From: Unio delphinus
Taxonomy: Eukaryota > Mollusca > Bivalvia > Unionida > Unionidae
Length of the DNA stretch: 64,000 bases
Assembly (NCBI GenBank): GCA_029339505.1
Contig: JAQISU010000069.1
Span: forward strand, 8,621,501-8,685,500
Direction: 5' to 3'
Shown here piece by piece: positions 11,378 through 31,428 of this stretch (positions within the stretch are counted from its first letter, which is position 1; each line of letters starts with the position of its first letter). Made by a program: the position numbers and the translations under genes. The notes under the pieces are model-generated. The model made no database searches. It saw nothing but the letters and a program-made list of their open reading frames with translations, and was not told the DNA's origin.

Positions 11378-11394
11378 CACTACGACGAAAATCA

Positions 11395-12768: not shown

Positions 12769-13222
12769 GTTTTTGTACTTCTAATTTTGACATCGCAGAA
12801 TCATATATATCTACCATCGCTGAAAACTCACTCTCTGATATAATTGTATCATCGAGAGATGACGATATCAATGAGGATAATTGCGAGTATGCAGTGGACA
12901 CAACATGAAATTGAATTATGTAGTCTTGTAGTTTCCGTTGGCTGCATGATGATATTTTTTTTGTGATTATTGAAATAATTCCAGCGATTGTTGTTGCCGC
13001 AGAAATGCAAATTGGAACAGCTATCGGGGCCATCATTGTCACTGAAGACAGTATAATACCGGCTCCGGTGATTACACCACTCACAGCGTACACAGTAACA
13101 TCAATTGCGGTAATTCTCCTGCGGTATTTTTTAATTTTCATTGCATACTCCTCAGACAGGGTTTTGAGTCTAGTTTGATATTCTCTGACCTGATCATAGC
13201 GATATTGCGATGATGAAATCAT
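12575..13222 (-). CDS. Inner hydrophobic membrane protein
   Basis: 215 aa starting MISSSQYRYDQVREYQ. A basic helix (residues 15-38) precedes a long hydrophobic segment (about residues 44-88, containing GIILSSVTMMAPIAVPICIS) that could span a membrane once or twice, then a helical acidic region and an Asn/Ser-rich tail. The outer homologue (7203-7794) is conserved in the hydrophobic core, so this region is functional. The last 60 or so residues overlap the penton-like gene and diverge, so the true stop may be affected. A small Polinton membrane-active virion protein is a reasonable guess, not demonstrated. Confidence 0.55.
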   Translation of the reverse strand: MISSSQYRYDQVREYQTRLKTLSEEYAMKIKKYRRRITAIDVTVYAVSGVITGAGIILSSVTMMAPIAVPICISAATTIAGIISIITKKISSCSQRKLQDYIIQFHVVSTAYSQLSSLISSSLDDTIISESEFSAMVDIYDSAMSKLEVQKHEYNNNGNTDGITSTNSGEHKPSTNKHNLNNLNESRIQCEFPLSGPSEGDSASKITSIPQLAKY

Positions 13223-13237
13223 TTTTTATTTTAACAA

Positions 13238-13254
13238 CGCTAGCGTTTTCAATT
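13238..13254 (-). promoter_or_regulatory. Conserved upstream motif before inner membrane-protein gene
   Basis: On the minus strand AATTGAAAACGCTAGCG is followed by an AT-rich stretch and the start codon. It is the clearest example of the shared motif. Confidence 0.55.
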
Positions 13255-13270
13255 GTGAAATCCTTTCAAT

Positions 13271-14218
13271 TTATTTACTTAAATCCGCTACGAATTCCAC
13301 ATACCATGTTGTTGAAACCCTAGCCAAAGTTTCATCAGTAGATGTTATAGTGAACTTTTCATTTGTACCCTTGTCGATGATCGTTGAAATCGTATTATTG
13401 ACCCCAGATGAACTGGACGATGAAATATTAAATTGAGACAATGGTGTTACTAGTGTTAATCGATAAATACCCTTAACGGTTGCAGTGATATCTAATTTGT
13501 TGTTTGTAGGTGACCACTCAAATGATCCGTGTTGGATTGTATATACTATGTTGTTAGTTTTCTCATGAGGAATTTTTGTTTTTTCAATAACTGTTATCAT
13601 CCTCGAAAAATCACCTTTGACGGCTTCGATGAAGTTTTTCGTCTCATCGATGGATTTTTTAATATCAGGGAGTTTAAGTTCAATTTTATCGAATGTAGTT
13701 CCAATAAATTTATCAATGATATTTCTACGAAATGCGGTAAACTGTTTTATGTGTTCTTCAATTCTAGATTTAAGTGTTGTTAGTACAACCACAGAATTGT
13801 TTAACTCATCGTTGAGAATTTTTAATCGATCTGTAATCGTCGAAACGAGTACACCCGGTTTGAGTTTACCCTGATCGGAAAATAGCGCAACGGTGTTCTC
13901 AATTGCGTTTTGTTGTTTAACTAAAATATCATCCAGAGAAATATTACTGGTTTTCAATTTACCCTGATCGGAAAATAGCGCAACGGTGTTCTCGATTGCG
14001 TTTTGTTGTTTAACTAAAATATCATCCAGAGAAATATTACTAGATTTCAATTTACCCTGGCGATCTTGAAATACAACTATTTCATTGGGTTCAACACTTT
14101 CTAAATTCAACGTCTCAGCTATTTCATCTTTAATTTTTTTTGTTATATCCTTGATAGAATCAGGGGTTGCAGTGCCATCGGGTTTGGGTTTCAAAGATCT
14201 CCCCCAAATAGCAATCAT
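13271..14218 (-). CDS. Inner spike/fibre-like protein
   Basis: 315 aa, intact. The N-terminus is MIAIWGRSLK. Residues about 56-115 contain a duplicated 31-residue unit beginning near GKLKSSNISLDDILVKQQNA and GKLKTSNISLDDILVKQQNA. A long helical, probably coiled-coil region (about 120-215) follows, then a C-terminal beta-rich domain with HGSFEWSPTNNKLDI and GIYRLTL. It sits between the protease and membrane-protein genes. An anchor, repeat stalk, coiled coil and terminal beta domain are typical of trimeric fibres or spikes, but no family match is claimed. The N- and C-terminal parts match the outer copy while the stalk differs strongly. Confidence 0.5.
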   Translation of the reverse strand: MIAIWGRSLKPKPDGTATPDSIKDITKKIKDEIAETLNLESVEPNEIVVFQDRQGKLKSSNISLDDILVKQQNAIENTVALFSDQGKLKTSNISLDDILVKQQNAIENTVALFSDQGKLKPGVLVSTITDRLKILNDELNNSVVVLTTLKSRIEEHIKQFTAFRRNIIDKFIGTTFDKIELKLPDIKKSIDETKNFIEAVKGDFSRMITVIEKTKIPHEKTNNIVYTIQHGSFEWSPTNNKLDITATVKGIYRLTLVTPLSQFNISSSSSSGVNNTISTIIDKGTNEKFTITSTDETLARVSTTWYVEFVADLSK

Positions 14219-14219
14219 G

Positions 14220-14642
14220 TTATTGTAAAACTCTTTCTCTCTCTAAAAAGCGATTGCTGGTGTAGTCATTTACGACAATATGAGGTGGTTTTCTAGATGC
14301 TGAAATAACGTCAAGGACATTTAATACTTCACTGCCGCATATTGGTGGGTCATTGATTTGTTGTGTTGGTAGCGTAGAATACCAAGTCTTCATTGGAAAT
14401 TGTTTTATGTAACGCATAAATTCTTTTGGTGGGGCTAATCCATATGAATCAAAATAGACAATCCCACGTGGATCAATAGCGTATGCAACCCAGTGAGTTC
14501 CAGGTCCGGTGCTGTTATCGAGATTAATAATACCTGTTTCAGTTTTGTTTGGTTGATGTGGTAATTGATCTTTCATAAAAACACCTCTGAAATTTTTAAT
14601 CACTAGTTTTTTAGCCGCATCCATTAAATCAAAATTGGACAT
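14220..14642 (-). CDS. Inner adenain-like cysteine protease
   Basis: Starting at MSNFDLMDAAKKLVIK (about 14633, or the Met at 14642) gives about 140 aa. The catalytic order is visible: His in PGTHWVAYAI, Asp in YFDSYG, Gln in TLPTQQ and Cys in PPICGSEVLNV, as in adenovirus-type C5 proteases used by Polintons to mature the virion. A longer open frame to 14801 only adds a low-complexity duplicated leader with the palindromic repeats, and the outer copy supports the shorter start. It is shorter than adenain (about 200 aa). The C-terminal 10 residues differ from the outer copy. Confidence 0.82.
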   Translation of the reverse strand: MSNFDLMDAAKKLVIKNFRGVFMKDQLPHQPNKTETGIINLDNSTGPGTHWVAYAIDPRGIVYFDSYGLAPPKEFMRYIKQFPMKTWYSTLPTQQINDPPICGSEVLNVLDVISASRKPPHIVVNDYTSNRFLERERVLQ

Positions 14643-14689
14643 TGGAATCATCGAAGATTTGGGAACCATAGGTTCGGAAATCGAAGATT

Positions 14690-14850
14690 TCTGAATTAAT
14701 AAATCGTTCCTGGTAGTCTCAGGCCTGATCCGTGAACGGATCTCCCGCTGTACCATGAATACGGGGTTCCTGGTAGTCTTAGACCCTTTCCGCTGTACCA
14801 CGAATACGGGGTTCCTGGTAGTCTTAGACCCAATCCGTGAACGGATCGTC
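14690..14850. repeat. Duplicated leader segment between pX-like and protease genes
   Basis: A unit with TTCCTGGTAGTCTTAGACC and CGCTGTACCAYGAATACGG occurs about three times, with the palindrome at 14727-14742 and an imperfect one at 14832-14847. The outer element has a shorter version at 9810-9900. Confidence 0.6.
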
Positions 14851-15236
14851 TCTTTTTTTATATCCTTGTCCAGCTGCCTTTTTCAACGCCATTCCTGCTG
14901 CAGTACCAACGGCTCCTAACGCTGCTGCTTTAGCCACCGCTGGGGCTGCTGCTGAAATCAATGGTGGTATTGCAGCTAACAATGGAAATATACCGCCTGT
15001 TTTAATCATATTTTTGATAGCAGCCGCAGAGAGAGAGTAATCTGAACCCCTTTTTTATCCTTGAAAGCATCATTGAAATGTTTCACCTGACGAGTTGTCA
15101 GCGATAATTTATTTGCACCACCAGTCATTTGGTTGGGTTTCAACGTGATTGTGGTTCCACATTTTTTAGCCGATTCTGATTGCAATTTTTTGATTTGACC
15201 TGGAGTTAACGTAACACTAATAACACTATATGACAT
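14824..15236 (-). pseudogene. Inner pX-like virion protein (CT-repeat frameshift)
   Basis: It starts MSYSVISVTLTPGQIKKLQS. The frame is lost at a run of CT dinucleotides near 15030, where the inner copy appears 2 bp out of frame relative to the outer copy. The second half, MIKTGGIFPLLAAIPPLISA followed by an Ala-rich segment and a basic end, reads from 15009 to 14824. The unbroken outer homologue is at 9886-10281. The dinucleotide run is a classic slippage site. Confidence 0.65.
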
Positions 15237-15285
15237 TATATATAATTGATTGATTCTAATTCAATGAAAAATCGAGAAAAATCGT

Positions 15286-16696
15286 TCAAAGATTTTCTAC
15301 TGGGGCATCTACCACTCTCATTCTTCCACCAACACCTTCGAGTAGCATTGATTTATCACTGAGAATGACAGCAACCGCTCTATAATCAGCAATAGCACCA
15401 CGAGTCACATTAGCTCTAAAGTGTATATCAACAACTGACTGTCTTGTCAAATCGAGATGTTCCAGTGAGAAGTAATAAATCGGATAGAGGCTTTTGAAAT
15501 CCCATTGTGATATTTGCAAACAAGTATCCACATTTTGATCGCGTGCCATAAATGACAACAGACGATGATAAACTCGTGCAATATGATTTTCTGTGTAATT
15601 AAGTTGGATATCCTCGGATGGTTCCTGCTGGCCGTTTATTCTCAGTGAGACGTCCTTCACACCTAATTGATCAAATATCATATGACTGGAGAGTTGATTG
15701 CCAACTCGTGCGTTATCCTGTAACGCAATAAATATATGACGTGGCGCAGAAACGCCTTGTTTTGATGCTAGGTTCCAAGTGAATAACCCGTTGATATTTG
15801 ATTGTTTCACATCTGTACTCACGGTTAGCCAACTCAGCAACGACTTTCCTCCTTGGTCCATACTTGATAGTAATCGTCCTTCTGCGGTGATTGCTGGAGT
15901 CAACACTGGCATCCACAATGATATTTTTGTTAAATCGACTCTACCGGCATCAGCATTGGGGGCTGCAACATCTACTGGAATCCTCCAAATTGCATCATTA
16001 TCATCACCCTTTCGTACAAGCGATACTGTATGCTTCGCCCCGTAGATAACTTTTCTGACGTTTCTACAGAATCCAAATATGTGATGCAGTGGAATCGCGC
16101 ATGAAAATGATTTACGCTCTCCTTGCAACATTGCGTTTCGTGTTGCAGCTCCTAGATTGAAATTAGCATCGTTGTTTATAATCATATTCTCGACATCAGA
16201 ATCACTATTATCACGTTTTTTTTTGTCGTCTTACAACAAATGGATTTCCTCCAGCGGTATTCTTACCATCTTTTGCAAACATCATAGAAGGTCCTGCTGA
16301 TCTTGTATAATCATCAGAATATCTCGCTAACCCGATTATTGTTGTGGCCACATCAACATCACGATCTATGGACTCAATTTCTTTTCCATCAATAAGATAT
16401 CTAGCACTCTCAAATAGCGCCATAATACCATTATTGACAAAACCGACTTGAGTACCAGCTGGATACGGTGCTGGTACAGCAGTAGTATCAGCAGCTGTTA
16501 CAATTTCTCCTTCTACTTCAATAAATGCTTCACAGGGTAAAAAGTATTTACTGGTATCATGGACTTGAAGATCAATTCTTGCTCGACTATTTGAGTTTAT
16601 GGCATGATAGGCGTAATATTGATAATCGCGTACAGAATCATCCTTGCCAACTGGGGCGTCTATATCAAACGCCGGATCATGTGATTTTTTGAACAT
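15286..16696 (-). pseudogene. Inner major capsid protein (one frameshift)
   Basis: The N-terminal block reads 16696-16211 (MFKKSHDPAFDIDAP, then FLPCEAFIEVEGE, NNGIMALFESARYLIDGKEI, TTIIGLARYSDDYTRS). The rest reads through 16185 to 15286 (NLGAATRNAML, PLHHIFGFCRNVRKVIYG, DFKSLYPIYYFSLEHLDLTR). Together they are about 465 aa, within the normal size of a Polinton double jelly-roll hexon-like capsid protein. The only break is a run of nine T (16216-16224) that puts the two blocks out of frame. Neighbouring genes are virion genes on the same strand. The break may be real or a homopolymer sequencing error. Confidence 0.88.
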
Positions 16697-16768
16697 TTTA
16701 TTCTATTTATCAGAGTCTAAATCGTGATTTTCATCGTGAAAAACGCTAGCGTGAAAATCCATAGAATT

Positions 16769-17200
16769 TCATCGACGTGGTTTTTTAAAGCCACTTCCTG
16801 CTATCATGATTGCAATATTGCTTTGGTCCCCTTGATTTACCATCGACGCTAGTTTTTCATCTACTGCGTTATTTATAATTTTACTAACACTTGCAGGCAT
16901 TTCTTCTGTAGACGGTAACGGTTTCTTTTTTCGCCTCACTAATGATGTTATTTTATCCTTCGCAGTTGAAAACGCCTTCCCGGCAAGATCTCCAACAGTA
17001 CTAATACCCTTATCACGAATAACATCAATGGCTTTCATTGATAATTGTTTAGCTAACGGCATCACTTTTGGGGCCATTCTTGAAAAGAATCCTAAAATGG
17101 TATTTCCGAGGCCATCTCCATAGTATGCTCTATAAACTGGAAACCGTGAATTAACTACATAGACGGGGGTTGGTTTATCATGATTATAATGGATGATCAT
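16769..17200 (-). CDS. Inner basic core / minor virion protein
   Basis: 143 aa, intact. It starts MIIHYNHDKPTPVYVVNS, has the motif YRAYYGDGLGNTILGFFSRM, then an amphipathic helical stretch with APLAKQ-like and RDKGIST residues, a basic cluster (LVRRKKKP) and a basic C-terminus. Strong conservation with the outer copy shows constraint. A glycine-rich start followed by amphipathic helices and basic clusters resembles small Polinton and adenovirus core or pVI-like proteins that bind DNA or membranes. This is assigned by position and composition. Confidence 0.55.
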   Translation of the reverse strand: MIIHYNHDKPTPVYVVNSRFPVYRAYYGDGLGNTILGFFSRMAPKVMPLAKQLSMKAIDVIRDKGISTVGDLAGKAFSTAKDKITSLVRRKKKPLPSTEEMPASVSKIINNAVDEKLASMVNQGDQSNIAIMIAGSGFKKPRR

Positions 17201-17212
17201 TATTATAAAAAC

Positions 17213-17228
17213 AATAGTGTTTTCAATT
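17213..17228 (-). promoter_or_regulatory. Conserved upstream motif before inner core gene
   Basis: AATTGAAAACACTATT on the minus strand, 13-28 bp before the start codon at 17200. Confidence 0.5.
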
Positions 17229-17233
17229 GTTAT

Positions 17234-17520
17234 TTAATCACTATGGTACCCATTTGCTAACTCGTCAATGAAATCTCGATAAGTTTTGATATCCATGATA
17301 CCGCCGGCAAATAACCGTCTACAGATATCAGCTGCTTCATTAATTATTTCCGGTGAATTATTTCCAGCTCGGAATCCTCCTACAAGAACATCTAATCGTG
17401 ATATATCATTGATAACACTATCAGGACATACCCCACTTTGGGGTCCACTGGAATCTTGCAATCCACTTCCGCTATAACCAGTTGCTTCATCTAGTTTTTC
17501 TACATCCGTTTCTTGTAAAT

Positions 17521-17555
<35 letters not shown>

Positions 17556-18256
17556 GGTAGTAGTTGTTGTTTTTTAGGAGAGAAAGAACTTTTCTTTGCA
17601 GGTTGCTGTCGCTTTCTTTGCAATTTTGGCGGTTTTTGTTGTTGTTTTAGTTCTTCATATTGATTATACACGTGATCCACCATCCTGATATATTCAATGT
17701 ATGATGCACTATCTGTCTTTTTTTGACTTTTTCCAGTTTTGATTTTGTAGAATATATCAGCCCAGTGAGTGAAATTCTTAACAAACTTATGATGTTCTGG
17801 TTTCAACATTTTTTTTCTGTTTTCATAAGACGTAACAACAAGCGCAGGAATTTCTGTTGGATCAGTCCCATCAATTTCTGCTAACCCTTCTTCGTTAAAT
17901 CTCATGCGTAAGTCCTCTACTGTTCTTTTTGATTCTATTTGTTTTGTTTGTTCAGTTTTTGCTGCTATTTTTTCAAGTTCACCAATAACAGATTTCCCCG
18001 TCTCGGGAACATCTCCCAGTAAAGCACGCTCTACCCCTTTCGTTGCTGTAGTTACTGGTTTAAACAACTCTTCAGACCCCAGAGCAAAATCAGTCTGAAG
18101 ACTCTGTCGTTGTTGCAGTTTATTCCGTACAGAGTCACGAATTGGTATAAATCTCTTAATTGCATCCAGTCGTTCACGAGCCAATCGGGTTGTTAATGCT
18201 TCATTGACCATTATTTGAAATCGCAAACCATTTTTCAATTGCAAAACACTTGACAT
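17234..18256 (-). CDS. Inner acidic Polinton protein of unknown function
   Basis: 340 aa, intact. The N-terminal helical region (MSSVLQLKNGLRF, then TTRLARERLDAIKRFIPIRD) is followed by a basic-rich middle with HWADIFYKIKTG, a run of 11 Asp encoded by a GAT/ATC trinucleotide repeat (17522-17555), and a C-terminal motif GNNSPEIINEAADICRRL...GGIMDIKTYRDFI. A C-terminal GNNS...NE...L...G-I...Y pattern recurs in Polinton-encoded proteins near the capsid genes; its function is not known to me. The outer copy is broken but conserved at both ends. The Asp run is a likely site of length variation. Confidence 0.6.
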
Positions 18257-18509
18257 GTCGGATGATTTTTAACACAGTCATGGAAGTGTTATTTCATCGT
18301 GAGACACCTTCTATCATTGATGGAGAAAGTATCAAAATTGTATATAAATAAAATAATACTGATAGTTTCTCCACTTTTTTGACATGTCGGATGATTTTTA
18401 ACACGGTCATGGAAGTGTTATTTCATCCTATAACAGCTTCTATCAGGTTTGTGGAAAGTGTCATAATTGTATATAAAATAAATAATACTGACAGTTTCCA
18501 CACTTTTTC
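18252..18509. repeat. Tandem 129-bp duplication over the acidic-gene start
   Basis: Two units begin GACATGTCGGATGATTTTTA at 18252 and 18381, with a weaker third start near 18530. The first unit includes the start codon of the acidic protein gene (18254-18256), so the duplication multiplies its 5' leader and promoter region. No gene is seen from 18257 to 18619 apart from this repeat. Confidence 0.7.
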
Positions 18510-18619
18510 ATTGATCAATCTGACATATCGTCCATCGATTTTTGACATACCCTTTGAGGGTCGGCTAAAAAAAATGAGGGTCGGAATGATAAATGGTCAG
18601 GCAATCAATGGTCGGGTAA

Positions 18620-18967
18620 TCAATTTTCTTGAATTAATGCTCGTAGGTTTCTAATTTTAGAGTTGACTTCTTTTTTCAATTCGTATTCGTACCCCAATTC
18701 TTTTCGTATTCCCTCTACGATAGTATACAACGGAACGAACACACTGATGTCACTGGAAAATGAAAGAGAGTCTTTAATAGAATTCTGAATTCTTTTGATG
18801 AGTGCATATTTCTTGGGTAGCATATACTTGTTAGTGCTAACCCCGTATTCTATATCCTGAAAATCAGACACAATTTGATCAGGATTTAACCCATCTGATA
18901 GTTTGATATCCTGATTTTTCAATTTTGCTATTTCAACTATGATGCTATTCATGTTTTCAGAATTCAT
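18620..18967 (-). CDS. Inner 118-aa-type conserved unknown protein
   Basis: Starting at MNSENMNSIIVEIAKLKN (18967) rather than the longer 19012 gives about 115 aa and matches the outer homologue (28737-29093). It is all-helical in appearance with KYMLPKKYALIKRIQNSI and a Lys/Arg-rich C-terminus. It lies between the HNH endonuclease and acidic protein genes in both elements. No family is recognised; strong conservation between the copies indicates a real gene. Confidence 0.55.
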   Translation of the reverse strand: MNSENMNSIIVEIAKLKNQDIKLSDGLNPDQIVSDFQDIEYGVSTNKYMLPKKYALIKRIQNSIKDSLSFSSDISVFVPLYTIVEGIRKELGYEYELKKEVNSKIRNLRALIQEN

Positions 18968-19011
18968 TATTCTATAAGAATGACATATCTCTAATTGGAA
19001 ATTATGACGCA

Positions 19012-19500
19012 TTAGACATAACTAAATTGAACTTTTTGTCCCGTCTTTTTTGAAATAGCCGTTTTGGTTATCCCCTCTGCAACGAATCGTACTGAAGTTC
19101 TACAAATATTGAAATACTTGCCGGCTTCATATAATGATTGAAATATTTTCTCTTCGTTAGTTGTTGTATTCAAAGATTTCACTGGTCTCGCTTTTGAACA
19201 AGTGTCAGTCCTTCCTCGTTTGGAATTCTCACTCTGTGTGATAGCTTGCAGATTTGATAAAGAATTGTTCCTTGGATTAGAATCAATGTGATCAATAACA
19301 AAACCATCTTTGATCAATCCATTAAAACATTCAAATACGAAACGATGATTGCGAAATGTCTTCCTTCCAACATTAAACACCAAATACCCCATACCATTAT
19401 CCCACCCAATTGGGTTCTTCAGTCTACAGTTTCTGACAGTACCATCACTGGATGCTTCGTAATTTTTAATCACTGGGTGTAGTCTGAATTCTTGGGTCAT
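19012..19500 (-). CDS. Inner NUMOD4/HNH endonuclease
   Basis: 162 aa, intact. The start MTQEFRLHPVIKNYEASSDG fits a NUMOD4-type DNA-binding motif. It is followed by the HNH core: HRFVFECFNGLI, GFVIDHIDSNPRNN, and LSNLQAITQSENSKRG. A C-terminal segment (EAGKYFNICRTSVRFVAEG) resembles a NUMOD1-type helix-turn-helix. This layout is typical of HNH homing-type endonucleases of phages and large DNA viruses, which cut specific DNA sites. It starts 96 bp from the divergent replication gene. The outer copy (30571-31038) has decayed, but its presence shows that the gene came with the common ancestor rather than being a late insertion. Confidence 0.8.
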   Translation of the reverse strand: MTQEFRLHPVIKNYEASSDGTVRNCRLKNPIGWDNGMGYLVFNVGRKTFRNHRFVFECFNGLIKDGFVIDHIDSNPRNNSLSNLQAITQSENSKRGRTDTCSKARPVKSLNTTTNEEKIFQSLYEAGKYFNICRTSVRFVAEGITKTAISKKTGQKVQFSYV

Positions 19501-19596
19501 TATATACTACACTATTGTCTAATTCAATGACTGACTCATTTTGCAGTGATTGATTATACATAAATCTTTCATTTAGACACCTGTTTTATATATAGC
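19501..19596. promoter_or_regulatory. Divergent promoter region, HNH / replication gene (inner)
   Basis: A 96-bp AT-rich interval between divergent start codons. TTTTATATATAG lies just before the plus-strand ATG, and the outer element has the similar TTTTAATTATAAC at the same place (31416-31428). A TATA-like element is possible but its distance to the start is very short. Confidence 0.35.
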
Positions 19597-22500
19597 ATGA
19601 AGGAGTTCAAGAGATTGACTTCGAAAAATGCTAAATTCAATGCTGATAGAGAGTTCAAGAGATTATTGAAAATCAATCCTAGATTTAATCGCGATAGACC
19701 CAAAAAACGTATAGTAGACGGAAACATGAAAGAGTTTAAGAGATTATTGAAAATCAATCCTAGATTTAATCGCGATAGACCCAAAAAACGTCCAATAGAC
19801 GGAAACAAACGTAACAAACGTCCAAAAGACGGAAACATGAAAGAGTTTAAGAGATTATTGAAAATTAATCCTAGATTTAATCGCGATAGACCCAAAAAAC
19901 GTAACAAACGTCCAAGAGACGGAAACATGAAAGAGTTTAAGAGATTATTAAAAATCAATCCTAGATTTAATATCGATAGACCCAAAAAACGTAACAAACG
20001 TCCAAGAGACGGAAACATGAGATCACCATGGAAGGATGCTCAATTCAATCTTGATATAGTTTCTAATACACCCAAGAATAAAATTCTTGATAAAGCCATC
20101 AGAGACTGTTTTAATGAATTCAAGCGTGATGGAGCATCTTATTGTTGGTCAACATTTCGAATTGATGGTGTTGTTGACGCTACCATGAATGATGAAAAGG
20201 CAGCAGTGATCATTTCACGTATTGGGGAAAAAAGTCATTTTTTCCGAATTAAATTCATTATCCGTGAGGATGGCAAATGGATCATTAGGGATAAATTTGA
20301 ACCCATTCTCAGGGGCAAAAAAACTGTCACCGTGAACCAGGATTCCAAACCGGGAATTTTGACTGGAATGGATAAACCCTACTACGAAAGATCTTATCCT
20401 GTCACAGCAGTTGTTTACGGGATCTATCCGCTCAATGAAAAACCTGATATTGCAAAACTAGCACCCATGAAATATTCGACAGGGCTCAACTGTGTAGCAG
20501 AACGAATAATAGAACACTTCACAAATGCGTCCCGGGGAAATAAACTAACTGATCTAAGACGAAAAAAAATAACCGAGTGGGAGTTCACGGTAAAAGAGCA
20601 TGGAGCAACAATTCAGGATATAACTAAATTAGAAAAATCATTAAGATTTCCAATATCGGTAAGGACAATCACCGGAGAAGTATTATACGAATCGAAATAT
20701 AAATCAAAAGGGGCTCCCATTGAAATTATTGATCATAACGCGCACGCGTGGTCATCTGCAGTAACAATATTCCCACGGGATAGAACCGTAAAATATCTAT
20801 CCCAAACCGAAGAGTTTTTTTCAGACCAGAAATTATTTGATGCTATTTACCATTTGAGTAAAAACGATTCTGTGTCAGCGTGGCTATTTCATAGTAATTC
20901 AGACGAGGAATGCAGATTTGATCAGTTTGTAAGGCCTAACGGAGAATTATACTGTACTGAAGAACTGCAGAATCAAATGAAACAACTACCTAGTGAGTTT
21001 TCTGAGGGGGAAATCGAAGATCAATTATTGGCAAACTGTTTCACAGTACCATCCATTGCAGCACATTTTGCTAGAAAGAAAAAACGCGTGGAAACCAACA
21101 CGAAGTGAGTTTTTATCAGATGTCAAATTGTCCTGTCTTGAATACAGCCACGGCGGATTATGGAACACAAAATACACCGCTGATACCGTTATTTCCATTG
21201 ATATGATTGCGTGTTATCCAGGAAGTTTTCTTGGGTATGGAGAGTGTGAGAAATATTTCAAACGATTTGGACACCCTACACACGAAATGACCCGTGTTGC
21301 TATTAATGGACCACTTCCTGATTTTGATTTAACCGGATTCGCTTGTGTGGTATCATTTGAAATGGCTGAAGGGCTTCATCTGTGTAGTTATCTTTGGATT
21401 GGTAAACACATGTCTGAAAAACACTGGATGCCAATAGTGTTATTACGGTATATGCTTGATTGTAAGATGTTAAAATCATTAATTGTCAGTGAAGCAATTA
21501 TATCCTATCGAGCACAGAAATCAGTCTGGTTACCACAACCTGATCTAGAAAAAATAATTAGCGAAGAGCGAAAACTGTTTCCAAATTTCAGTGAACAACA
21601 AATCATGGATTGGTCCCAACAGTTATTTGAAATCAGAAACAATGAAGCAAAAAATCTTGGACGAAGAATAATCGGTAAATTTACCCAAGGTGGCAAAGAT
21701 GATAATACGAAATATTCTTCACGATTGATTATAGACAACGCTGAATACGATTTTGTAATCGCGGATCTAACGAATAGGGGCCTATATGTCAATCGTAAGG
21801 ACGCATTTATGTCCGATGGAACCAAATTGGGTACAATTGTTACCTACAATGATGGATACCATCCGCAGTACACACACGTAAGAGCTTCTATGCTCGGTTA
21901 TGCTTCTATCAATCTGTTTTCAATGATCAATAGATTTCCTACCACCGCAGTTAGAGTTGCTACTGATTCATTTTACATAAATAGCAAAATGGCTGATTTT
22001 AAGGCTACTGGCAACGAGAAATGGGGATCATGGAGAATTAAGAAAGAAATGATTCATGATTATATTCCATCAGCAGATGTTACCATTGAAAATAATTACT
22101 TAGAAAGCAATCAGTGTTCAGAATTTTCTAGTGCACCACCGATTTCTGATCCAATATGCCTGTATAAAACAGTTTATTTAAACGGCTGTGGTGGGTCAGG
22201 AAAAACAACCCGGGCAATTGAGTTATTTCGTGTTTCCAATCCAAACATGATTGTGCTAACACCAACTCATAGACTTGCAAGAGAACTGATACAGAGAGGG
22301 GTTAATGCCTGCACTTATCACAGCTTTTTCCGATGGAAGGGAGATAAATGGACTCCTGAGCGCATGGGAGAGAAATTTATTCCTGAAATTATCATTTGGG
22401 ATGAAATAGACACAGTGTCAGAAGATGTCTTAAAAATATTTCTTGAGTGGTTGTTATTGAAGAATACAAAAGTCGTCATGTGCGGTGATCACGGCCAACC

Positions 22501-23439
22501 ACCACCATTTGTCGGTGCATCTCCCCATGAATGGCTAAAGGGTTTTGTAGACTATTATGAAGAAATTGATACCGATCATAGATCACTTGATAATGAATTA
22601 AAAGAATTTAAGAAACTAATTAGATTACAACCGGATAGAATCCAGTGTGAAATAACCCGTGAAATAATTTCGGAAACTCCCATGAATGAGTTTTGGGAAA
22701 TGTGGAGACCAAACGATTTGATCATTGCAAGTAGAAAAATAGTCAGGGATACACTTCAGATGAAATTATTTGAATTGCATAAAGAAAAATTTGCAACGCT
22801 TCCAGTACCCCTTTGTTATAGGCCATCGGATACACGAAAACAGAACATCGAAGTTGATATTCCAGGACAGAGTGAAAAACAAATTCTCATATTAAATGAT
22901 ATTGTGCTGGTTGATATCAATGTCGTTGAAGATGCATTGCGTGCTAATAAATCCCCATGGACGCTAGGATACGCAGCAACAATACACTCTTCACAGGGAT
23001 TGACTATATCGGATACAATTGTTTGGATGGTAGATAATCGCATAGAATGGTCAAATTTAGTCTATCTTTCAGTATCCAGAGTACGAAAAATAAATCAACT
23101 TCGAAGAATTGTCCTGACAGAGTCAGGCGATGATGAAATCATTAGCGATGATAATGACACCACAATAGATGATATTATTGATAAAAAACTCTCCGGTTAC
23201 AAACAACAGGACAAAAAAAAAAACAACGAGAATTTGATATTGATGCTGAATTAATAATCACTTTGAAGCAACAACAGAATAATCACTGCGCGAGTTGCAA
23301 TTGTATAATGCGTTGGCAGTATTCGGATAAGGATCCTCGCCAATTCACCGTTGACAGAAAAAATAACAATCTCGGTCATGTCAGAAATAATGTGATGTTG
23401 ACTTGCCTTGAGTGCAATAGACGCAAGGGTGCTAGTTAA
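19597..23439 (+). pseudogene. Inner replication protein: PolB-like palm + SF1 helicase + HNH (two frameshifts)
   Basis: About 1,280 codons in three blocks: 19597-21108, 21090-23254 and 23240-23439. After an N-terminal array of about 30-residue repeats come a conserved central region (NCVAERIIEHFTNASRGN), a motif A-like VISIDMIACYPGSFLGYGE (near 21195), a motif B-like RRIIGKFTQGG and a motif C-like VRVATDSFYI (near 21955). The helicase half has Walker A GCGGSGKTT (near 22190), TPTHRLAR, Walker B IIWDEI, CGDHGQPP, ATIHSSQGLT and YLSVSRV, the motif set of SF1B (Pif1/RecD/Dda-like). The end has two Cys pairs flanking DRKNN...GHVRNN, an HNH/zinc-type nuclease end. Frame breaks are at A runs near 21078 and 23214. 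It should replicate the element; protein priming is inferred from the TIRs. The polymerase call is from motifs only. Confidence 0.75.
19655..20020 (+). repeat. In-frame tandem repeats in replication protein N-terminus
   Basis: Four long copies of a unit of 26-37 residues carrying EFKRLLKINPRF and DRPKKR, plus a divergent first copy. Most copies begin with Met, so internal starts are possible. The outer homologue has a single equivalent segment. Confidence 0.85.
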
Positions 23440-24375
23440 GACCATGCGGTGGTAATTGAGTATCCTCGGGTATCACTTGTAATTGTTGTCTAGTAAAACC
23501 CCGTTGAGGGGCAGTTGAATCCAGTTTATAGATTGGAGGTCTACCCGTAGATCGTGTTATACTAGATATCTTATGCGTAGTGACGCTCCAAATAGGATCA
23601 GTAGCCCTTTTCTATCCCCTTCAAGCTCTCCTGGTTCGTATAAGTACCTCACAATGACATTACTACCAAGAATTGGTTCTTTGAAATCTTTTTGTGGTTT
23701 TTCAGGTATCGACTTCTTTTTAATCGCGTTGATAGGTTTCATGTTGATGGTTCTAGTAATCTCGTTATTCAGTGCGGTAACTACACCTGGTAATCTCTTA
23801 ACCCATTCACGGGATCTTTTTTTTTGGATGAATTCTTTTGCATATTGATATCCAAATAACCGTTCAGCAAGAATCCGATTAAATCGTTTTACAATGGCCT
23901 GATCACGATGCAGTGCAGTATGCCCTCGTCTGATAGCGACATTGTGATATTTCATTGTAGATAACACTGCACCCTGAAATTCCTTGCCAGGATCAACTTG
24001 TAATAGATTTGGCCAGTGCAGCGGACTCCTTCGATAAATCCTTTCAAATGCAGAAGCCACTTCAGTGGCCGATTTTGTTTTTAACGGTTCTGCTTCTTTG
24101 TATCGACTTGCAATATCAACTACGGTTAATGCGTATTTGTAACCACGATCATGTGGCAGAAATAATAGATCAGCCTGATGAACTTCATTGGGTCCGGTTA
24201 CATCAAAATGCGAGAATTGAATTTGTTTAGGCGGTGGTAGATAAATTTGCCATAGTGCCTTTTTGGATAACCAATGAGCCGCAGTGGTTTTTTTCACTTT
24301 TGCGGCGCTAGCGAGTTTACTGATTGCAGCGTTACCCTTCCAGTATCCTCTTGGGGAATAGTAAATAGATTCCAT
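23432..24375 (-). pseudogene. Inner retroviral-type integrase (catalytic Glu replaced; C-terminal frameshift)
   Basis: It starts MESIYYSPRGYW (24375). The rve core shows the first Asp in HQADLLFLPHDRGY, the second Asp in LLQVDPGKEFQGA, and the position of the catalytic Glu in RDQAIVKRFNRIL, where Lys is present instead of Glu; the outer copy has Glu at this position. A frameshift near 23610 (AGAAAAGGG) removes the normal C-terminal SH3/chromo-like segment, which otherwise reads on to 23432 and includes DPIWSV and LQVIPEDTQLPPHG. The gene is convergent with the replication gene and overlaps its end by about 8 bp. Polinton integrases insert the element and make the target duplication; this copy is predicted inactive. 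Confidence 0.88.
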
Positions 24376-24382
24376 GTTGTTA

Positions 24383-24912
24383 TTAATTACCAGCACCTAA
24401 CATCAATTTACTTTTCATTGCCGATTTTATCAAAAATGAAGCCAATTTTTCTTTGAAGGATTTATCAGGAATGGCATTCAACGCATGAATTAATTTCACA
24501 TCTGCTAGATGCCTGTGTTGCAAATTGCTGCTTTTATAAGCAACATCATGAAGGTGACAGGCCTTATCAATAGCGTTTATTGGTTCCTCACCGGGTCGGG
24601 GCTGATTTTGATCATTGAGTCTGATATCAAGTCTTGTTCCCGGTCCACAATAACTATACCCTGGAAGGTGTTTTTCTCCGGGGTATTTTGCCCATGGGGT
24701 TCCAGGGAGTTTTGCTAATTTGGCAGCGATATCACCTCCTCGTTTTTTTTTAAAGGTTCCTTGGGTTCCTTGGGTTTAGAAAAAAATCTAAATTTCTTTG
24801 TACTACATTGTACGCATTTACCAGAAAGCGCTGATCGGTTATTTTTAGTTGTAATCGTCGTCAAGTCATCTGTGCCAGTACGCGCCTTACACTTCACGCA
24901 ATATAGATCCAT
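24383..24912 (-). pseudogene. Inner zinc ribbon-phospholipase A2 protein (A9 frameshift)
   Basis: The N-terminal zinc ribbon (MDLYCVKCKARTG...GKCVQCSTKKFRFF, a DUF5679-like CxxC...CxxC) reads from 24912 and is followed by a Lys/Pro linker. At a run of nine A (24743-24751, T on the plus strand) the frame changes. The following open frame to 24383 encodes a parvovirus-type PLA2 domain with Ca-loop-like GYSYCGPGTRLD, catalytic-type HDVAY and a downstream LADVKLI. In the outer copy the run has ten A and both domains are in one frame, so they form one protein. The PLA2 probably acts on membranes during entry, as known for parvovirus capsids. This second half is easily missed because it has no start codon of its own. 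Confidence 0.8.
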
Positions 24913-24917
24913 AATTT

Positions 24918-25589
24918 ATGTATAGAGATATGAATATAATTGATTTTTCAGCGACTAAAACAAGAGAACCAGTGAAGCATCATGCAGCGCTACCAAACTC
25001 TATCCGCGCAATTATAATCGGGCCATCTGGATCCGGTAAAACGCAATATTTGCTCAATTTAATAATGAGATGGATGAAGTGGGATAAGTTGTATTTAATT
25101 GCCCCTAGCGTAGACGACCAACGATGCTATGAAGTGCTAAAAGATTTTAATGAAAACGCTTCAGAGATTGCCGGCGAGGATGTTATTGAATTTATAACCG
25201 ATATTGACGAGGCGCCATCCGTGAATGACCTCGATGGAAGTATCAACAATTTACTTGTATACGACGATGTCATGTTAGATAATCAAAAAAATCCTGCTAG
25301 AATATTTTCCCGAGGCAGGCATAAAAACACTGATGTAATCTATGTCACTCAACGCTACACTCAGATTCCAAAAGTGATTAGAGATAACTGTAATGTGCTT
25401 GCTGTATTCAACGGCGTTGATACACATACGCTACGAAATATTTGGCAGACATGGTGTTCTGATATGGACTTCAATCAATTTAGAAATTTCTTTAGTCATG
25501 CTCAGTCTGCCCCACACGGATTTGTAACAATAAATTTACATGACCCTCGAACACGATATCGTATCGGACTGGATCAAATATTCGGTTAA
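24918..25589 (+). CDS. Inner packaging ATPase (FtsK/HerA type)
   Basis: 223 aa, intact, beginning MYRDMNIIDFSATK (24918, or the internal Met at 24930). Walker A is IIIGPSGSGKTQYLLN (about residues 32-47) and Walker B NLLVYDDVM (about residues 111-119), followed by HKNTDVIYVTQRYTQIPKVI. This matches the A32-like genome-packaging ATPases of Polintons and nucleocytoplasmic viruses, which pump DNA into the capsid. The start is 5 bp from the divergent zinc ribbon gene. The last 18 or so codons lie inside the right TIR, so the left TIR carries an inverted copy of this coding end. The size is typical for the family. Confidence 0.92.
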   Translation: MYRDMNIIDFSATKTREPVKHHAALPNSIRAIIIGPSGSGKTQYLLNLIMRWMKWDKLYLIAPSVDDQRCYEVLKDFNENASEIAGEDVIEFITDIDEAPSVNDLDGSINNLLVYDDVMLDNQKNPARIFSRGRHKNTDVIYVTQRYTQIPKVIRDNCNVLAVFNGVDTHTLRNIWQTWCSDMDFNQFRNFFSHAQSAPHGFVTINLHDPRTRYRIGLDQIFG

Positions 25590-25897
25590 CCCCAACTGAA
25601 AGTTCTAGCAGCAGAGAGGGTAAGTGACAACGATGTTGTAGTCCCTTTTCCCAAAAATCGATGGAGGATTTCATTAATTTCATTGATTTTTTCATATTTT
25701 TTTTTTGGGACCTAATCCATGATTCACACACACATTGGGGCCTGATGTCATTGGTTTCATTGTTTTTAAGCGTGATTTGAGTGAAAACTTGAAAAACACA
25801 CACATTGGGGCCTGATGTCATTGGTTTCATTGTTTTTAAGCGTGATTTCAGTGAAAACTTGTCTAAAAATGTTGTCCGATTCGCCCCTTCTGCTCCT
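25534..25897. repeat. Inner element, right TIR
   Basis: Inverted copy of 11015-11377 with very few differences. Its inner part codes for the ATPase C-terminus, and it contains the two tandem copies of the roughly 66-bp unit. Confidence 0.93.
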
Positions 25898-26630
25898 GCA
25901 GGATCCGCTGGAATCCTCCAGATTGCATCATCGTCACTACCCTTTCGCACGAGTACTATTGTATGCTTCGCTCCATAAATAACTTTTCGTACATTTCTAC
26001 AGAATCCAAATATATGATGCAACGGAATCGCACATGAAAACGATTTACGCTGTCCTGCCAACATTGCTATTCGTGTTGCAGCTCCTAGATTGTACTGGGG
26101 ATCAGTATTTATAATCATATTCTAGACATCAACAGCAGCAGCGCCAGCATTATTATTTGGTCGTCGTACAATAAATTGAGTAGGTCCAGCAGTGTTTTTA
26201 TTATCTTTTGCAAACATCATAGACGGACCTGCTGATCTTGTATAATCATCAGAGTATCTTGCTAACCCAATTATTGTTGTAGCCATATCAACATCACGTT
26301 CTATAGACTCAATCTCTTTTCCGTCAATGAGATATCTCGCTGATTCAAATAGCGCCATGATACCATTATTGACTAAGCCGACTTTGGTGCCATCTGGATA
26401 CGGGTCGGGTATAGCAGGAGTATCAGTAAGTTGTACAAGTTCTCCTTCTACTTCGATAAACGCTTCACACGGCAAAAGTATTTGCTGGTATCATCGACTT
26501 GAAGTTCAATTCGCGATCGAATATCTGCTTGTATTGCATGATAGGAATAAAATTGATAATCGCGGACGGAATTGTCCTTGGGTACTGGGGCTTCCATATC
26601 TAACGCTGGATCAGCTGTTCTTTTAAACAT
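25898..26630 (-). pseudogene. Outer major capsid protein, N-terminal part (split, frameshift and stop)
   Basis: It starts MFKRTADPALDMEAPVPK (26630). A single-base loss near 26475 shifts the frame at the position equivalent to KYFLPCEAF in the inner copy; the reading resumes as EAFIEVEGELV to 26122, where a stop codon (Glu to TAG) occurs. It continues as NLGAATRIAML, PLHHIFGFCRN, up to the inner element boundary at 25898. The 3' part is 10331-11014. It is the first half of a double jelly-roll hexon-like capsid protein, with three kinds of damage: insertion, frameshift and nonsense. Confidence 0.9.
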
Positions 26631-26640
26631 TATATTAACA

Positions 26641-26657
26641 TACTAGTATTTTCAATT
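26641..26657 (-). promoter_or_regulatory. Conserved upstream motif before outer capsid gene
   Basis: AATTGAAAATACTAGTA on the minus strand, 11-27 bp before the capsid start at 26630. Confidence 0.55.
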
Positions 26658-26673
26658 GTGAAATTCTTTGTAA

Positions 26674-27156
26674 TCATCGTCGTTTTTGTTTTCGTTTCAA
26701 ACCACTTCCTGCTATCATGTTTGCGATATCATCTTGGTTACTGTTCGCCAGCAACGCAGCCACGGATGACGGAGTCACCGAAGCAGCCAACGACGCTAAT
26801 TTTTCTTCCACTGCGCTATTTATTGCTTTGCTGACACTTGCAGGCATCACTGTTGTAGATGGCAGTACAACTGGTTGCTTTTTTCGTCGTCGCACCAATG
26901 ATGTTATTTTATCTTTCGCGGCAGAAAATGCCTTTCCGGCAAGATTTCCAACAGCGCTGATTCCCTTATCACGAATAATATCAATGGCCTTCATTGATAA
27001 TTGTTTAGCTAACGGCGCCACCTTGGGAGCCATTCTTGTAAATAACCCCGCAATGGTATTGCCGAAACCATCTCCGTAATATGCTCTATAAACAGGCAAT
27101 CGTGAGTTCACCACGTAGACGCTTACGGGTTTATCATGGTTGTAGTGTATACTCAT
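26674..27156 (-). CDS. Outer basic core / minor virion protein
   Basis: About 160 aa from MSIHYNHDKPVSVYVVNS (27156), intact. It shows the same YRAYYGDGFGNTI motif, amphipathic helices and basic cluster (LVRRRKKQP) as the inner copy (16769-17200), with an Ala-rich insertion near the C-terminus and a basic end (KRKQKRR). The start at 27156 is preferred over 27183 because it matches the inner start and places the AATTGAAAA motif directly upstream. It is one of the few undamaged outer genes. Confidence 0.55.
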   Translation of the reverse strand: MSIHYNHDKPVSVYVVNSRLPVYRAYYGDGFGNTIAGLFTRMAPKVAPLAKQLSMKAIDIIRDKGISAVGNLAGKAFSAAKDKITSLVRRRKKQPVVLPSTTVMPASVSKAINSAVEEKLASLAASVTPSSVAALLANSNQDDIANMIAGSGLKRKQKRR

Positions 27157-27170
27157 CTTGTTATAAAACT

Positions 27171-27185
27171 CGTAGTTTTTCAATT
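27171..27185 (-). promoter_or_regulatory. Conserved upstream motif before outer core gene
   Basis: AATTGAAAAACTACG on the minus strand, 15-29 bp upstream of the start at 27156. Confidence 0.5.
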
Positions 27186-27190
27186 AGTGA

Positions 27191-28317
27191 TCAATCGCTA
27201 AGATCCATAGGATTTTCATCATAAACATGGGCGTCTCTGTGATTTTCAACTAATTCAGCAATGAGTTCTCGATATACATAAATGCCCATGATACCGCCGG
27301 CAAATAATCGTCTACAGATATCAGCTGCTTCATTAATTATTTCAATGGAGTTGTTTCCGGCTCGCTTCCTCCCGATGAGAACTTCCAGCCGTGATATATA
27401 CGAGAGAATATTACCAGGACAACTAACTAGGCCACTACCTGAAATTACTGGCAATTTCTGAGATTTAGAAAATCCCTTCCCACTACTATAATCAGGTGCT
27501 CCCTCCAGTTTTTCTAAATCCGTACTTTGTAAATAACTAAAAGGATCATCATCATCTCGATCAGATGGTCCAGGCGAAAGTCCAAGCGAAGCTTGGGATG
27601 GTAGTTGTTGAGATTCTTCTTGTTTAGCAGGTGAAAAAGATATTTTTTTACAGCTTGTTGTCGCCGCCGCTGCAGTCTTTGTGGTTTTCTTTTTGAATTT
27701 TGTTCTTCATATTTATTATACACTATACTCACCATTTTGAGATATTTAATATATGACGTATTGTCCTTGTCAACTTTACCTGTTTCAGTTTTAATTTTGT
27801 AAAATATATCAGCCCAATGTTTTATACCTCTTACATACTTGTGCTGTTCTGGTTTTAACATTTTTTTTTCTGTTTTCATACGTCGTAACAACAAGTGCAG
27901 GAAACTCTGCATGGTCAGTCTTATCAATTACTGCTAACCCTTCTTCGTTAAATCGCGCGCGTAATTCATCTACTATTTTATCATTGGTCTTTTTCGGACC
28001 AGGTGGTTTTTTTGTAACAACGCTGATGTCTTTTCAGTTTCCGCTGCTATCTTTTCAAGTGTATCAAGCAGCGGCGCCTTCGCTGCTCGTTATTTTTCAG
28101 GAATATCTCCGTATATCGCTGCTTCAGTTAACTTTTTCACATCTTTGGTCGCACTTGTTATCGGAGTAAACAGTTGTTCACTTGACATAGAAAAGTCAGT
28201 ATGCGCTTGTTGTCGTTGTTGAAGTTTTTCGCGAAGTCTGTCTCGAACCGGTATAAACTTTTTAATTGCTGCTAGCCGCTCGCGGGCTAATTTAGTTGTA
28301 AGCGATTCACCTACCAT
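27191..28317 (-). pseudogene. Outer acidic Polinton protein (several breaks)
   Basis: It starts near 28317 (TTKLARERLAAIKKFIPVRD). A stop lies near 28092 and further frame changes near 28010, 27860 and 27645. The conserved C-terminus (GNNSIEIINEAADICRRLFA) reads to 27191. The homologue of 17234-18256 has only a short Asp run here. Function unknown; it is clearly a decayed gene. Confidence 0.65.
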
Positions 28318-28382
28318 ATATTGTTTGTGAACTGAGTTTTCAAATGTGAAACTATCACAATTAAAAGCTGAGTTATTAAATA

Positions 28383-28661
28383 ATGTACCATCAAGCTAAC
28401 GTATCCATCTCGGACAAGGTTAAACTGTACGACGCTATCCGCGAGTGTTTCAGAAACAACATCGCTGGGGGTTTCAAAATTGTAATATCTGAGAACGGCG
28501 ATGAACGATTTTTGTTAACGACGCGGCAACAACAACAACTACGTGAAAATGGAGGCGTCGCGGTGATTACTTGCTACCACAACCAGATCATCCAGTACGC
28601 ACATAACTGCATGAGCAAGCCCAAACTGCTGAGTATCCTTTCAGGAGAAAATCCCATGTGA
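28383..28661 (+). CDS. Outer-only 92-aa unknown protein
   Basis: The open frame MYHQANVSISDKVKLYD... begins 65 bp from the divergent acidic gene start. It ends within a region that has no counterpart in the inner element (18257-18619). The residue mix (FKIVISENGD, FLLTTRQQQQLREN, AVITCYHNQII) is that of a normal small protein with no membrane segment. No family recognised. It could be a small early gene lost from the inner element, or a chance frame. Confidence 0.4.
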   Translation: MYHQANVSISDKVKLYDAIRECFRNNIAGGFKIVISENGDERFLLTTRQQQQLRENGGVAVITCYHNQIIQYAHNCMSKPKLLSILSGENPM

Positions 28662-28736
28662 CAAGTGTAACAAGTGTTACAAAAAACACTAAAAAAAAAT
28701 TACTGAAAGCCTATTTTTATAGTAACGGTCACGTGG

Positions 28737-29093
28737 TTAGGATACTGGTTTTTCCTCGTTTAATATTTTTCTAAGATCACGAACCTTAGAACTAATTTCA
28801 GCTCGTTTTTGATACCCTTGGCCGAGCTTTTGACGTATTGCTTCAACGGTGCTAAATAGCGTTATAAATACATTAATGTTGTTACCATACAAACAAGCAT
28901 TGATGGACTTTTGAATTCCTTTCACGAGCCTATACATCTTAGGTAAAACATAACGACCCTTACTAAACTGATACTCAATGTCTTCATATTCCGAGGCAAT
29001 CCTGTCATAGTCGAGATCTTCAGATAATACTATCCCTAGATTCTTCAAAATTGAAATTTCAGCAATTATAGAATTTACATCGTTGATATCCAT
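28737..29093 (-). CDS. Outer 118-aa conserved unknown protein
   Basis: It starts MDINDVNSIIAEISILKN and is intact. It matches the inner gene at 18620-18967 in the blocks YVLPKMYRLVKGIQKSI and KRAEISSKVRDLRKIL. Function unknown; a helical protein in the same position in both elements. Confidence 0.55.
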   Translation of the reverse strand: MDINDVNSIIAEISILKNLGIVLSEDLDYDRIASEYEDIEYQFSKGRYVLPKMYRLVKGIQKSINACLYGNNINVFITLFSTVEAIRQKLGQGYQKRAEISSKVRDLRKILNEEKPVS

Positions 29094-29099
29094 TATTTA

Positions 29100-30570
29100 T
29101 ATAATACATTTTATCTCTAATTATTAAAAAATATTGGGGTCGTTTTTGACCCGTTTTGTTTTATGGACAGTACAATGCCGTATATATCTCCACTCGAGTG
29201 TTGCGGCAGATTTTAGGCATACATATACTTAATTAAGTTAATTAATGGACGGTACAATGCCATATATATCTCCACTCGAGTGTTGCGGCAGATTTTAGGC
29301 ATACATATACTTAATTAAGTTAATTAATGGACGGTACAATGCCGTATATATCTCCATTCGAGTGTTGCGGCAGATTTTAGGCATACATATACTTAAGTTA
29401 ATTATTCAATGAAACGATGATGGAATTTGTGATGTGGATGGTGGGCGTGTGCAAACCCAAGGGAACCCCAAAGCATACATCTCTGAAAGGGAGGCCTAAG
29501 GTGACAAACATCATCTTAGACCGCCCAGAAGATATGCTTGGGGGACATCACAACATATACTTAATTAACTTAATTAATGGACGGTACAATGCCGTATATA
29601 TCTCCACTCGAGTGTTGCAGCAGATTTTAGGCATAACATACTTAATTAACTTAATTAAGGATGGTATTATTCAATGAAACAATGATTGAATTTGTGATGT
29701 AATGATGTGGGACGGCACAAGACAGCACAAACATGAAACGACGGGGCAGATTTTCTACGGCCAATCCAACCAATCAAAATCAACCGAACTAAATTAACCC
29801 GGTTGCATGATTGACAAAAGACAACCACACGCCCGTGTTAATGGCGTTGCTTAGTTTTGATTGGTCGGATTGGCTTTCGAAAGCCCCAAGCTTATTACGA
29901 GTCATAACATATATAAGGCGACTAATACAGCAGCGTTGATTCACGAGTGTGTTATTTTATTTCCTTGAATTACTTATTAATACTGTTTCACAACATTTAA
30001 ATGAGACAAAATATTTAAATAAAACACTAAACAAAATAATACAGTTGTTAGATAACAGCGTGTATTTTCCCTGTTCTAATTCTCTAGACAAAATGCATTA
30101 TCTATTAGATCACAAAGAGCTGTATACAGAGGAATTTTAACCACGCCCACCTACTTCAATGAATGGGAAACACTAGTGTTTCATGCTCGTTCCGGCTGAG
30201 CGAACATAGGTAGCGCGCTTTATTATAAAGAACGTCTGTACTAAAAGTGTATAAATAACTGAACTTAGATGGTCTAAATAAATACAACCGTTTAAATGAT
30301 GCGGTTTTAGCCAAGCGACAATAAAAAGTTTTAAAAAATGTTAAAAGTTGATAAATACAACTCTACCGAAACTATGTATTTACTCCATTACAGTCACGTG
30401 TGCGCGCCTAGTGAATTATACCTCTCTTTCTATAGGTGTAGCAGACGACACAAATTCCTTTGACGTCATAATACAATGGAACTTAGTGAGTAGAGTGTTA
30501 TGAGTGGCGGCGACTTATTCATAAAGGAGTTATCTCCCTTGAATCGTTTCAGATGTATACGACTTTTATT
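29100..30570. other. Outer-only spacer with 82-bp minisatellite and promoter-like region
   Basis: About 1.5 kb absent from the inner element. At 29165-29405 there are three tandem 82-bp units (containing GGACGGTACAATGCC and CTCCACTCGAGTGTTGCGGC), with a further copy at 29579-29650. At 29760-29920 there are CCAAT-type motifs in both orientations (CCAATCAAAATC, GATTGGTCGGATTGG) and a TATA-like CATATATAAGG near 29910, followed by a 63-codon frame (29949-30140). It could be a separate inserted element or a promoter with a small gene. Nothing else convincing was found. Confidence 0.5.
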
Positions 30571-31038: not shown

Positions 31039-31039
31039 T

Positions 31040-31428
31040 TGTATAATAATACTATTTGTCTAGTTTATATCTGCTTTAATTATAAATCTCTGTATACAAC
31101 TGTGAGGGGTATTTATGATTTTGTCGCTGACGGAGTCATCAGTAGGATCAGTGACTGCATTTTTTATTCGTTTGTCATAATAGCGTTTTAGTTCTCTGTA
31201 ACGTTTGCCGCCACAACTGAGACACAACTACGATCTTCCCCTTACCCCCACCCCACATCAGAGGCACGGTAGGGGGCCAAAGGAACCGTTGCGAACGCTA
31301 TGTAAATGATACCCACAGAATTCGCTTCTGCATGATTTGTTACACGGGGTTGTTGATCGAATCATTAGCCACTTGCATTGATTCATTATACTATATTTTT
31401 CTATTTAAATACTTGTTTTAATTATAAC
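31040..31428. other. Divergent intergenic region, HNH / replication gene (outer)
   Basis: About 390 bp, longer than the 96 bp of the inner element. It contains a C-rich segment at 31236-31262 and AT-rich sequence before the replication gene start. No gene recognised. Confidence 0.35.

Follow-up and report, generated by a model that had tools for sequence, protein, structure and literature searches.

In a 64,000-nucleotide window of contig JAQISU010000069.1 (positions 8,621,501 to 8,685,500) from the Unio delphinus assembly GCA_029339505.1, we found two broken copies of a gene for a multidomain replication protein, one in each of two nested polinton-like elements. We identify them, at a confidence of about 85%, as decayed copies of the pPolB-S1H protein ('Tlr1-like helicase') in elements that are probably from a mollusc. 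In intact relatives, a single chain comprises a predicted domain at the terminal-protein (TP) position, a vOTU-like protease, a family-B DNA polymerase palm, a Pif1-like superfamily 1B (SF1B) helicase and an endonuclease-VII-like HNH nuclease. This identification draws on homology, domain order, conserved residues, the predicted palm and helicase folds of a relative and, more weakly, the predicted vOTU fold. We file the protein with the pPolB-S1H family because the layout published for that family matches, and because a 13-row profile of the clade aligns over 857 columns, at a probability of 99.9%, with a 17-row profile built from a more distant family. The placement is a probable one that goes by described layout and residues; no named Tlr1 or transpoviron sequence came up among the matches.

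The polymerase-helicase fusion was reportedly named by Krupovic et al. in 2016. An earlier note on this DNA had presented the fusion as a departure from known replication modules, but its architecture is not new: passages of PMC11071308 already describe TP-vOTU-palm-S1H proteins with a C-terminal GIY-YIG or HNH domain in polinton-like viruses, Tlr1 and transpovirons.

Gene structure in the two copies and in relatives

The order of parts given in the earlier note, polymerase motifs followed by a full set of superfamily 1 (SF1) helicase motifs and an HNH motif with two Cys pairs, is present on the plus strand at 19597-23439 (the inner copy) and again at approximately 31429-34956 (the outer copy). 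So is the frame it reported to be shared by helicase and HNH in the outer copy, which is open at 33694-34956. Its description of one gene in both elements is correct only when pieces are joined: each copy is split into three pieces, and neither has one frame spanning all domains (Table 1). Every junction can nevertheless be read through in one copy or the other: the outer copy is open from N-terminus to palm and from helicase to HNH, and the inner one from palm to helicase. Both copies are broken and decayed. The two breaks of the inner copy are close to runs of A and may reflect decay, assembly error or slippage. Without a splice-site search, we set aside an intron between the pieces; because the break sites differ between the copies and both inner breaks lie near A-runs, decay or homopolymer error is the simpler explanation. 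A domesticated host gene was also set aside, as the element context and the decay speak against it. Comparing the copies in five separate pieces, we obtained ratios of nonsynonymous to synonymous divergence (dN/dS) of 0.19, 0.28, 0.31, 0.17 and 0.30, which suggests that they diverged under constraint before decaying.

With the inner palm and helicase reading frame as query we found 122 protein relatives, 120 of them among the matches listed. A search with one relative, P0050, found 55 proteins, including three new family members and also P0127, and P0127 as query found 32 proteins of the more distant family. Five domain profiles, built from 31 of the 123 family proteins, place all five domains in one chain in 34 of the 123; the other 89 are without one or more parts, and none has a different domain order. 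Palm, SF1 helicase and HNH are thus real and fused in the relatives, as the domain profiles and the predicted folds of one relative indicate. Each helicase copy matches Pfam models (AAA_19/AAA_30, E = 3.8e-10 in the inner copy; AAA_19, E = 5.2e-13 in the outer), Pif1 is matched in the PDB by both sequence and fold, and relatives match a Dda-like helicase in PHROG.

The three pieces per copy could instead mean that separate genes encode the palm, the helicase and the HNH, joined in appearance by decay. A stand-alone helicase gene, which the earlier note had named as counter-evidence, did not turn up in protein searches restricted to lengths between 0.55 and 1.75 times that of the query; because of this limit, short stand-alone relatives would have been invisible. 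We regard separate genes as highly improbable all the same, given the 34 five-domain chains, the junctions that are each open in one copy, and the contradicting examples of P0004, P0013 and others.

The relatives come from records named for a mussel (Sinanodonta woodiana), a sea slug (Elysia), a coral (Desmophyllum) and fungi (Racocetra, Cetraspora, Gigaspora, Diversispora and Rhizophagus). The coral protein and the two from Sinanodonta are partial, with no HNH motif seen. A quick tree, made from 46 selected proteins, joins the window protein first to P0004 and P0007 (support 86) and next to a Sinanodonta protein (96), and the eight fungal proteins form one group (100); 13 of the 43 inner branches are weak, and the tree program flagged long branches that link the window group and P0050 to two others. 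Viral contigs yielded no relative when searched with the inner palm and helicase protein, nor a match to the capsid protein, and a search of them with the 13-row alignment gave one distant match (on the 126-kb contig L001, with 26% identity over the helicase part). Among genome contigs one relative came up, the 3.2-kb contig L002, which bears the title Diapherotrites (best segment 47% identical) and whose plus strand has no open reading frame (ORF) of at least 150 amino acids; in our view it is probably eukaryotic contamination. Along with L002, four proteins (P0065, P0069, P0072 and P0080) are in records named for archaea or lucinid symbionts (Diapherotrites, Thiodiazotropha), and these relatives are probably eukaryotic DNA in those assemblies.

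Table 1. Positions of the replication gene pieces and of the features of the two nested elements in the window.
Feature	Position	Strand	Evidence
Inner N-terminal piece: repeated leader, TP-position alpha/beta domain, vOTU-like protease domain; ends before palm	19597..21108	+	ORF; 66% identity to P0004 residues 13-378 (366 residues)
Tandem repeats encoding leader peptide, inner	19650..20020	+	Tandem Repeats Finder, periods 81 and 90
vOTU-like core, inner	20485..20751	+	Cys box LNCVAERI 20485-20508; His box IIDHNAHAW 20725-20751
Inner palm and helicase piece, single open frame, 753 aa	20993..23254	+	ORF; 71% identity to P0004 over 731 residues
PolB palm, inner	21188..21976	+	motif A 21188-21226; GKF block 21668-21694; motif C RVATDSFY 21953-21976
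SF1B Pif1/RecD2/Dda-like helicase, inner	22184..23083	+	Walker A 22184; WDE 22391; GDHGQPPP 22481; HSSQGLT 22979; SVSRV 23063
Inner C-terminal HNH piece	23185..23439	+	open frame; HNH motif 23287-23415
Outer N-terminal domains and palm to past GKF block, single open frame	31378..33366	+	ORF; aligned start ~31429; 70% identity to P0004 over 647 residues
Outer palm remainder (motif C = AVDS) and damaged Walker A stretch	33308..33796	+	open frame; 71% identity to P0004 over 139 residues
Outer helicase and HNH, single open frame	33694..34956	+	open frame; ORF 33793-34956; AAA_19 E 5.2e-13; 77% identity to P0004 over 392 residues
Inner element	11015..25896		inverted repeats and flanks
Inner element, inverted-repeat arms	11015-11377/25534-25897		99% complementary
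Inner element, probable 6-bp target duplication TGCAGG	11009-11014 and 25897-25902		flank sequence
Outer element, host of inner one	5662..37349		inverted repeats and flanks
Outer element, main inverted-repeat arms	5665-5908/37107-37349		92 and 95%, more diverged than inner arms
Outer element, termini			AGCAGCAG; ACAAA or TACAAA flanking
Inner element, adenovirus-type cysteine protease (weak)	14220..14801	-	PF00770 E 0.0029, under cut-off
Inner element, ORF	15286..16185	-	PF21738 E 5.9e-16
Inner element, retrovirus-type integrase	23557..24396	-	PF00665 E 1.4e-7, 0.4 bits short of Pfam cut-off
Inner element, A32-type packaging ATPase	24918..25589	+	PF04665 E 1.7e-12

The N-terminal domains and the polymerase palm

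The long N-terminal part, which the earlier note had left unassigned, fits the TP-position domain and vOTU of the pPolB-S1H family. The TP-position region has helices and strands in predicted models, and the fold comparison gave no terminal-protein match for it. In a 39-row alignment, the vOTU Cys is kept in 37/37 and the His in 36/36 rows that have a residue at the site. Of 50 VIA-align rows, 42 are OTU-type proteases by title, but at low Z (3.4-5.4), so that the fold by itself would not decide the matter. At its start, the inner gene has its opening codons expanded into in-frame tandem repeats of about 81-90 bases, and by eye the outer copy has about one unit.

Structure prediction, which the earlier note had proposed as a check, gave a palm in the model of an intact relative; for the broken piece from the window itself, the model was too weak for a decision. 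That outer N-terminus and palm model had no confident Foldseek or VIA-align match, a result that does not show differing folds. The relative's predicted palm matches the fold of phi29 DNA polymerase, starting from phi29 residue 52-54, which presumably lies inside the phi29 exonuclease domain, so that a remnant of the exonuclease may be present in the palm region. The phi29 match is also suggestive of the TPR1 and TPR2 subdomains of protein-primed PolBs. The best viral structure match of the model is H6WBE3, an accession for which a literature search found no paper. A fold match was also obtained to the protein-primed DNA polymerase of mavirus (E = 1.3e-10, TM-scores 0.18 and 0.31).

The GKF block is, in our reading of the sequence, probably the end of motif B. 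At the catalytic positions, the motif A Asp and the last Asp of motif C are kept in all 38 rows with a residue (of 39), and the first Asp of the motif C DTD is Ala in the same proportion (38/38). This substitution raises the prospect that the palm is a dead structural remnant, with only the helicase and nuclease at work and a host or helper polymerase copying the DNA; a 2016 paper, as recounted in passages of PMC11071308, termed the polymerase inactivated. The same passages report this motif C change in Tlr1-like helicases and argue that it does not abolish activity, noting that mavirus, pipolin and other active PolBs are also without that Asp. The two other Asp residues are intact, and the palm pieces show signs of constraint, with dN/dS of 0.28 and 0.31, yet these values and that of the HNH (0.30) are the highest of the five pieces. 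On balance a dead palm seems unlikely to us, and the palm is quite probably active.

The C-terminal HNH domain

All 31 full-length rows keep the four Cys of the HNH, together with its Asn and its later His. HNH families usually carry DH at the core Asp; here the His is replaced by Arg (DR), again in 31/31. The inner piece hits PF01844 only below its cut-off (E = 0.0047), whereas the HNH and endonuclease VII profiles of PHROG match clearly. The best of them is 'endonuclease VII', with E = 2.8e-11 in the inner copy, 1.0e-6 in the outer one, where the piece is cut, and 1.8e-8 and 1.8e-14 in the relatives P0004 and P0013. Against PDB sequences the HNH piece found no relative, two pleckstrin rows (E = 0.9 and 1.3) being noise. 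PacI, hit by the 13-row profile at E = 0.5 only, was too weak to use.

For C-terminal domains of this kind, passages of PMC11071308 propose a homing reading (intein invasion), by which the HNH would be a selfish endonuclease that invaded the C-terminus and has no role in replication. Several of our observations agree with it. A free-standing HNH_3/NUMOD1 ORF (19012-19500, minus strand) adjoins the replication gene head to head. Between the inner and outer copies, 200-base bins are 61-81% identical at 20000-23200 and 76-93% identical over the stretch that begins with the HNH and runs to the element's right end (about 23200-25533 compared with 34728-37106), and synonymous divergence is 0.8-1.1, falling to 0.20 in the HNH. 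This step looks like a recombination or conversion boundary, and co-conversion would produce such a rise, yet identity stays high to the right end of the element rather than falling again. None of the 32 proteins in the distant family matched the HNH profile; eight of these (P0127-P0132, P0135 and P0136) have about 290-320 residues beyond the helicase, without an HNH. Correlation with helicase distances is also somewhat lower for the HNH (r = 0.82) than for the palm (0.90).

Other observations point to a domain that has been inherited. Of the family proteins reaching the helicase end, 62 of 77 have the HNH; ten of the other 15 end no more than 36 residues past the helicase, and five carry 67-162 other residues, so true members without an HNH are possible. 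Distances in the HNH agree with those in the helicase (Mantel test on 31 of the 39 rows, 0 of 2000 permutations as high), much as they do for the N-terminal domain (r = 0.83). Its position at the end of the chain, and endonuclease VII as the best profile, also argue against homing. From the retention in 62/77, the correlated distances and the absence from the distant family, the HNH seems to mark the clade and to have been passed down within it for some time. We put the homing reading at somewhat under an even chance. Our own suggestion for the animal- and fungus-associated clade, which we consider rather less likely than not, is that the HNH has ceased to be a homing gene (supposing that it once was) and now works as a fixed endonuclease-VII-like resolvase, one chain priming, freeing the primer, copying, unwinding and debranching a linear genome.

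The nested elements, the proposed mechanism and known systems

The nesting of the two elements was borne out, the inverted-repeat arms of the inner one lying within those of the outer one (Table 1). The inner element interrupts the double jelly-roll (DJR) capsid gene of its host (10484-11107 on the minus strand, resuming at about 25908). The inner element itself has the features by which the polinton-like supergroup is recognized: inverted repeats and genes for a DJR capsid protein, an A32 packaging ATPase and a retrovirus-type integrase, the last scoring 0.4 bits under its cut-off. It also has a gene with a weak match to an adenovirus-type protease. The integrase also hits the NCBIfam IS481 transposase model, at 1.4e-10 and far under cut-off. 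The replication gene lies between the capsid-side genes and the integrase of the inner element. AGC triplet repeats terminate both elements (at 11015, 25896, 5662 and 37349), and such termini would suit the sliding-back mechanism of protein priming. To the right of the outer element are satellite-like arrays at 42547-44025, 38044-38772 and 54347-55296 (units of 59, 27 and 42 bases), and Rfam gave no match within the window at gathering scores.

In the mechanism that we envisage, the N-terminal domain would prime synthesis where the linear DNA ends in AGC repeats, the vOTU would cut the primed part free, the palm would copy the DNA while the helicase opened the strand ahead of it, and the HNH would cut branched or joint DNA. 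We give the scheme as a whole roughly even odds; each activity in it, including priming, self-cleavage and the substrate of the HNH, is read from the anatomy of the protein and from the published family.

Among known systems the closest are the Tlr1-like helicases (pPolB-S1H) in passages of PMC11071308, which share the order of a TP-position domain (predicted here), the vOTU with its Cys and His, the palm followed by an SF1 helicase in one chain (here in the inner ORF and in the relatives), a C-terminal HNH or GIY-YIG, and the loss of the first motif C Asp. Our copies differ from those described in their probable mollusc host, the HNH in 62/77 relatives, the inner leader repeats and the broken state of both genes. 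In classic Polinton/Maverick elements pPolB stands alone without a helicase, whereas here the palm is fused to one. Mavirus polymerase has also been published as TP-vOTU-palm, but its helicase (S3H) is a separate gene (passages of PMC11071308). The Helicase SF1-pPolB protein of OmPLV from Oxyrrhis marina also joins the two in one chain of a polinton-like element, but with the helicase N-terminal and an exonuclease domain retained in the polymerase (passages of PMC12721341). Some Cryptomonas polinton-like viruses similarly have an SF1 helicase with a C-terminal GIY-YIG, whereas the HNH fusions in cryptophyte ones are N-terminal to the helicase (passages of PMC12220804). Phage endonuclease VII, matched by the C-terminal domain, differs in that the nuclease here is fused to a replication protein. 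In the mainly open-access literature, consulted as listings and passages, we found no account of this clade from elements of molluscs or Glomeromycotina; passages of PMC7805220 mention an early Polinton found in Rhizophagus.

What this family gains is a host range that includes molluscs and Glomeromycotina, and an HNH that is nearest to the endonuclease VII profile and apparently co-inherited with the helicase, not scattered as homing genes are. A pPolB-S1H protein is placed, alongside genes for capsid, packaging and integrase, in elements that are probably from a mollusc. The full-length relatives offer material for testing the activity of a palm with an altered motif C, and the apparent joint inheritance of nuclease and helicase in this clade may serve as a test case for the published homing or intein reading.
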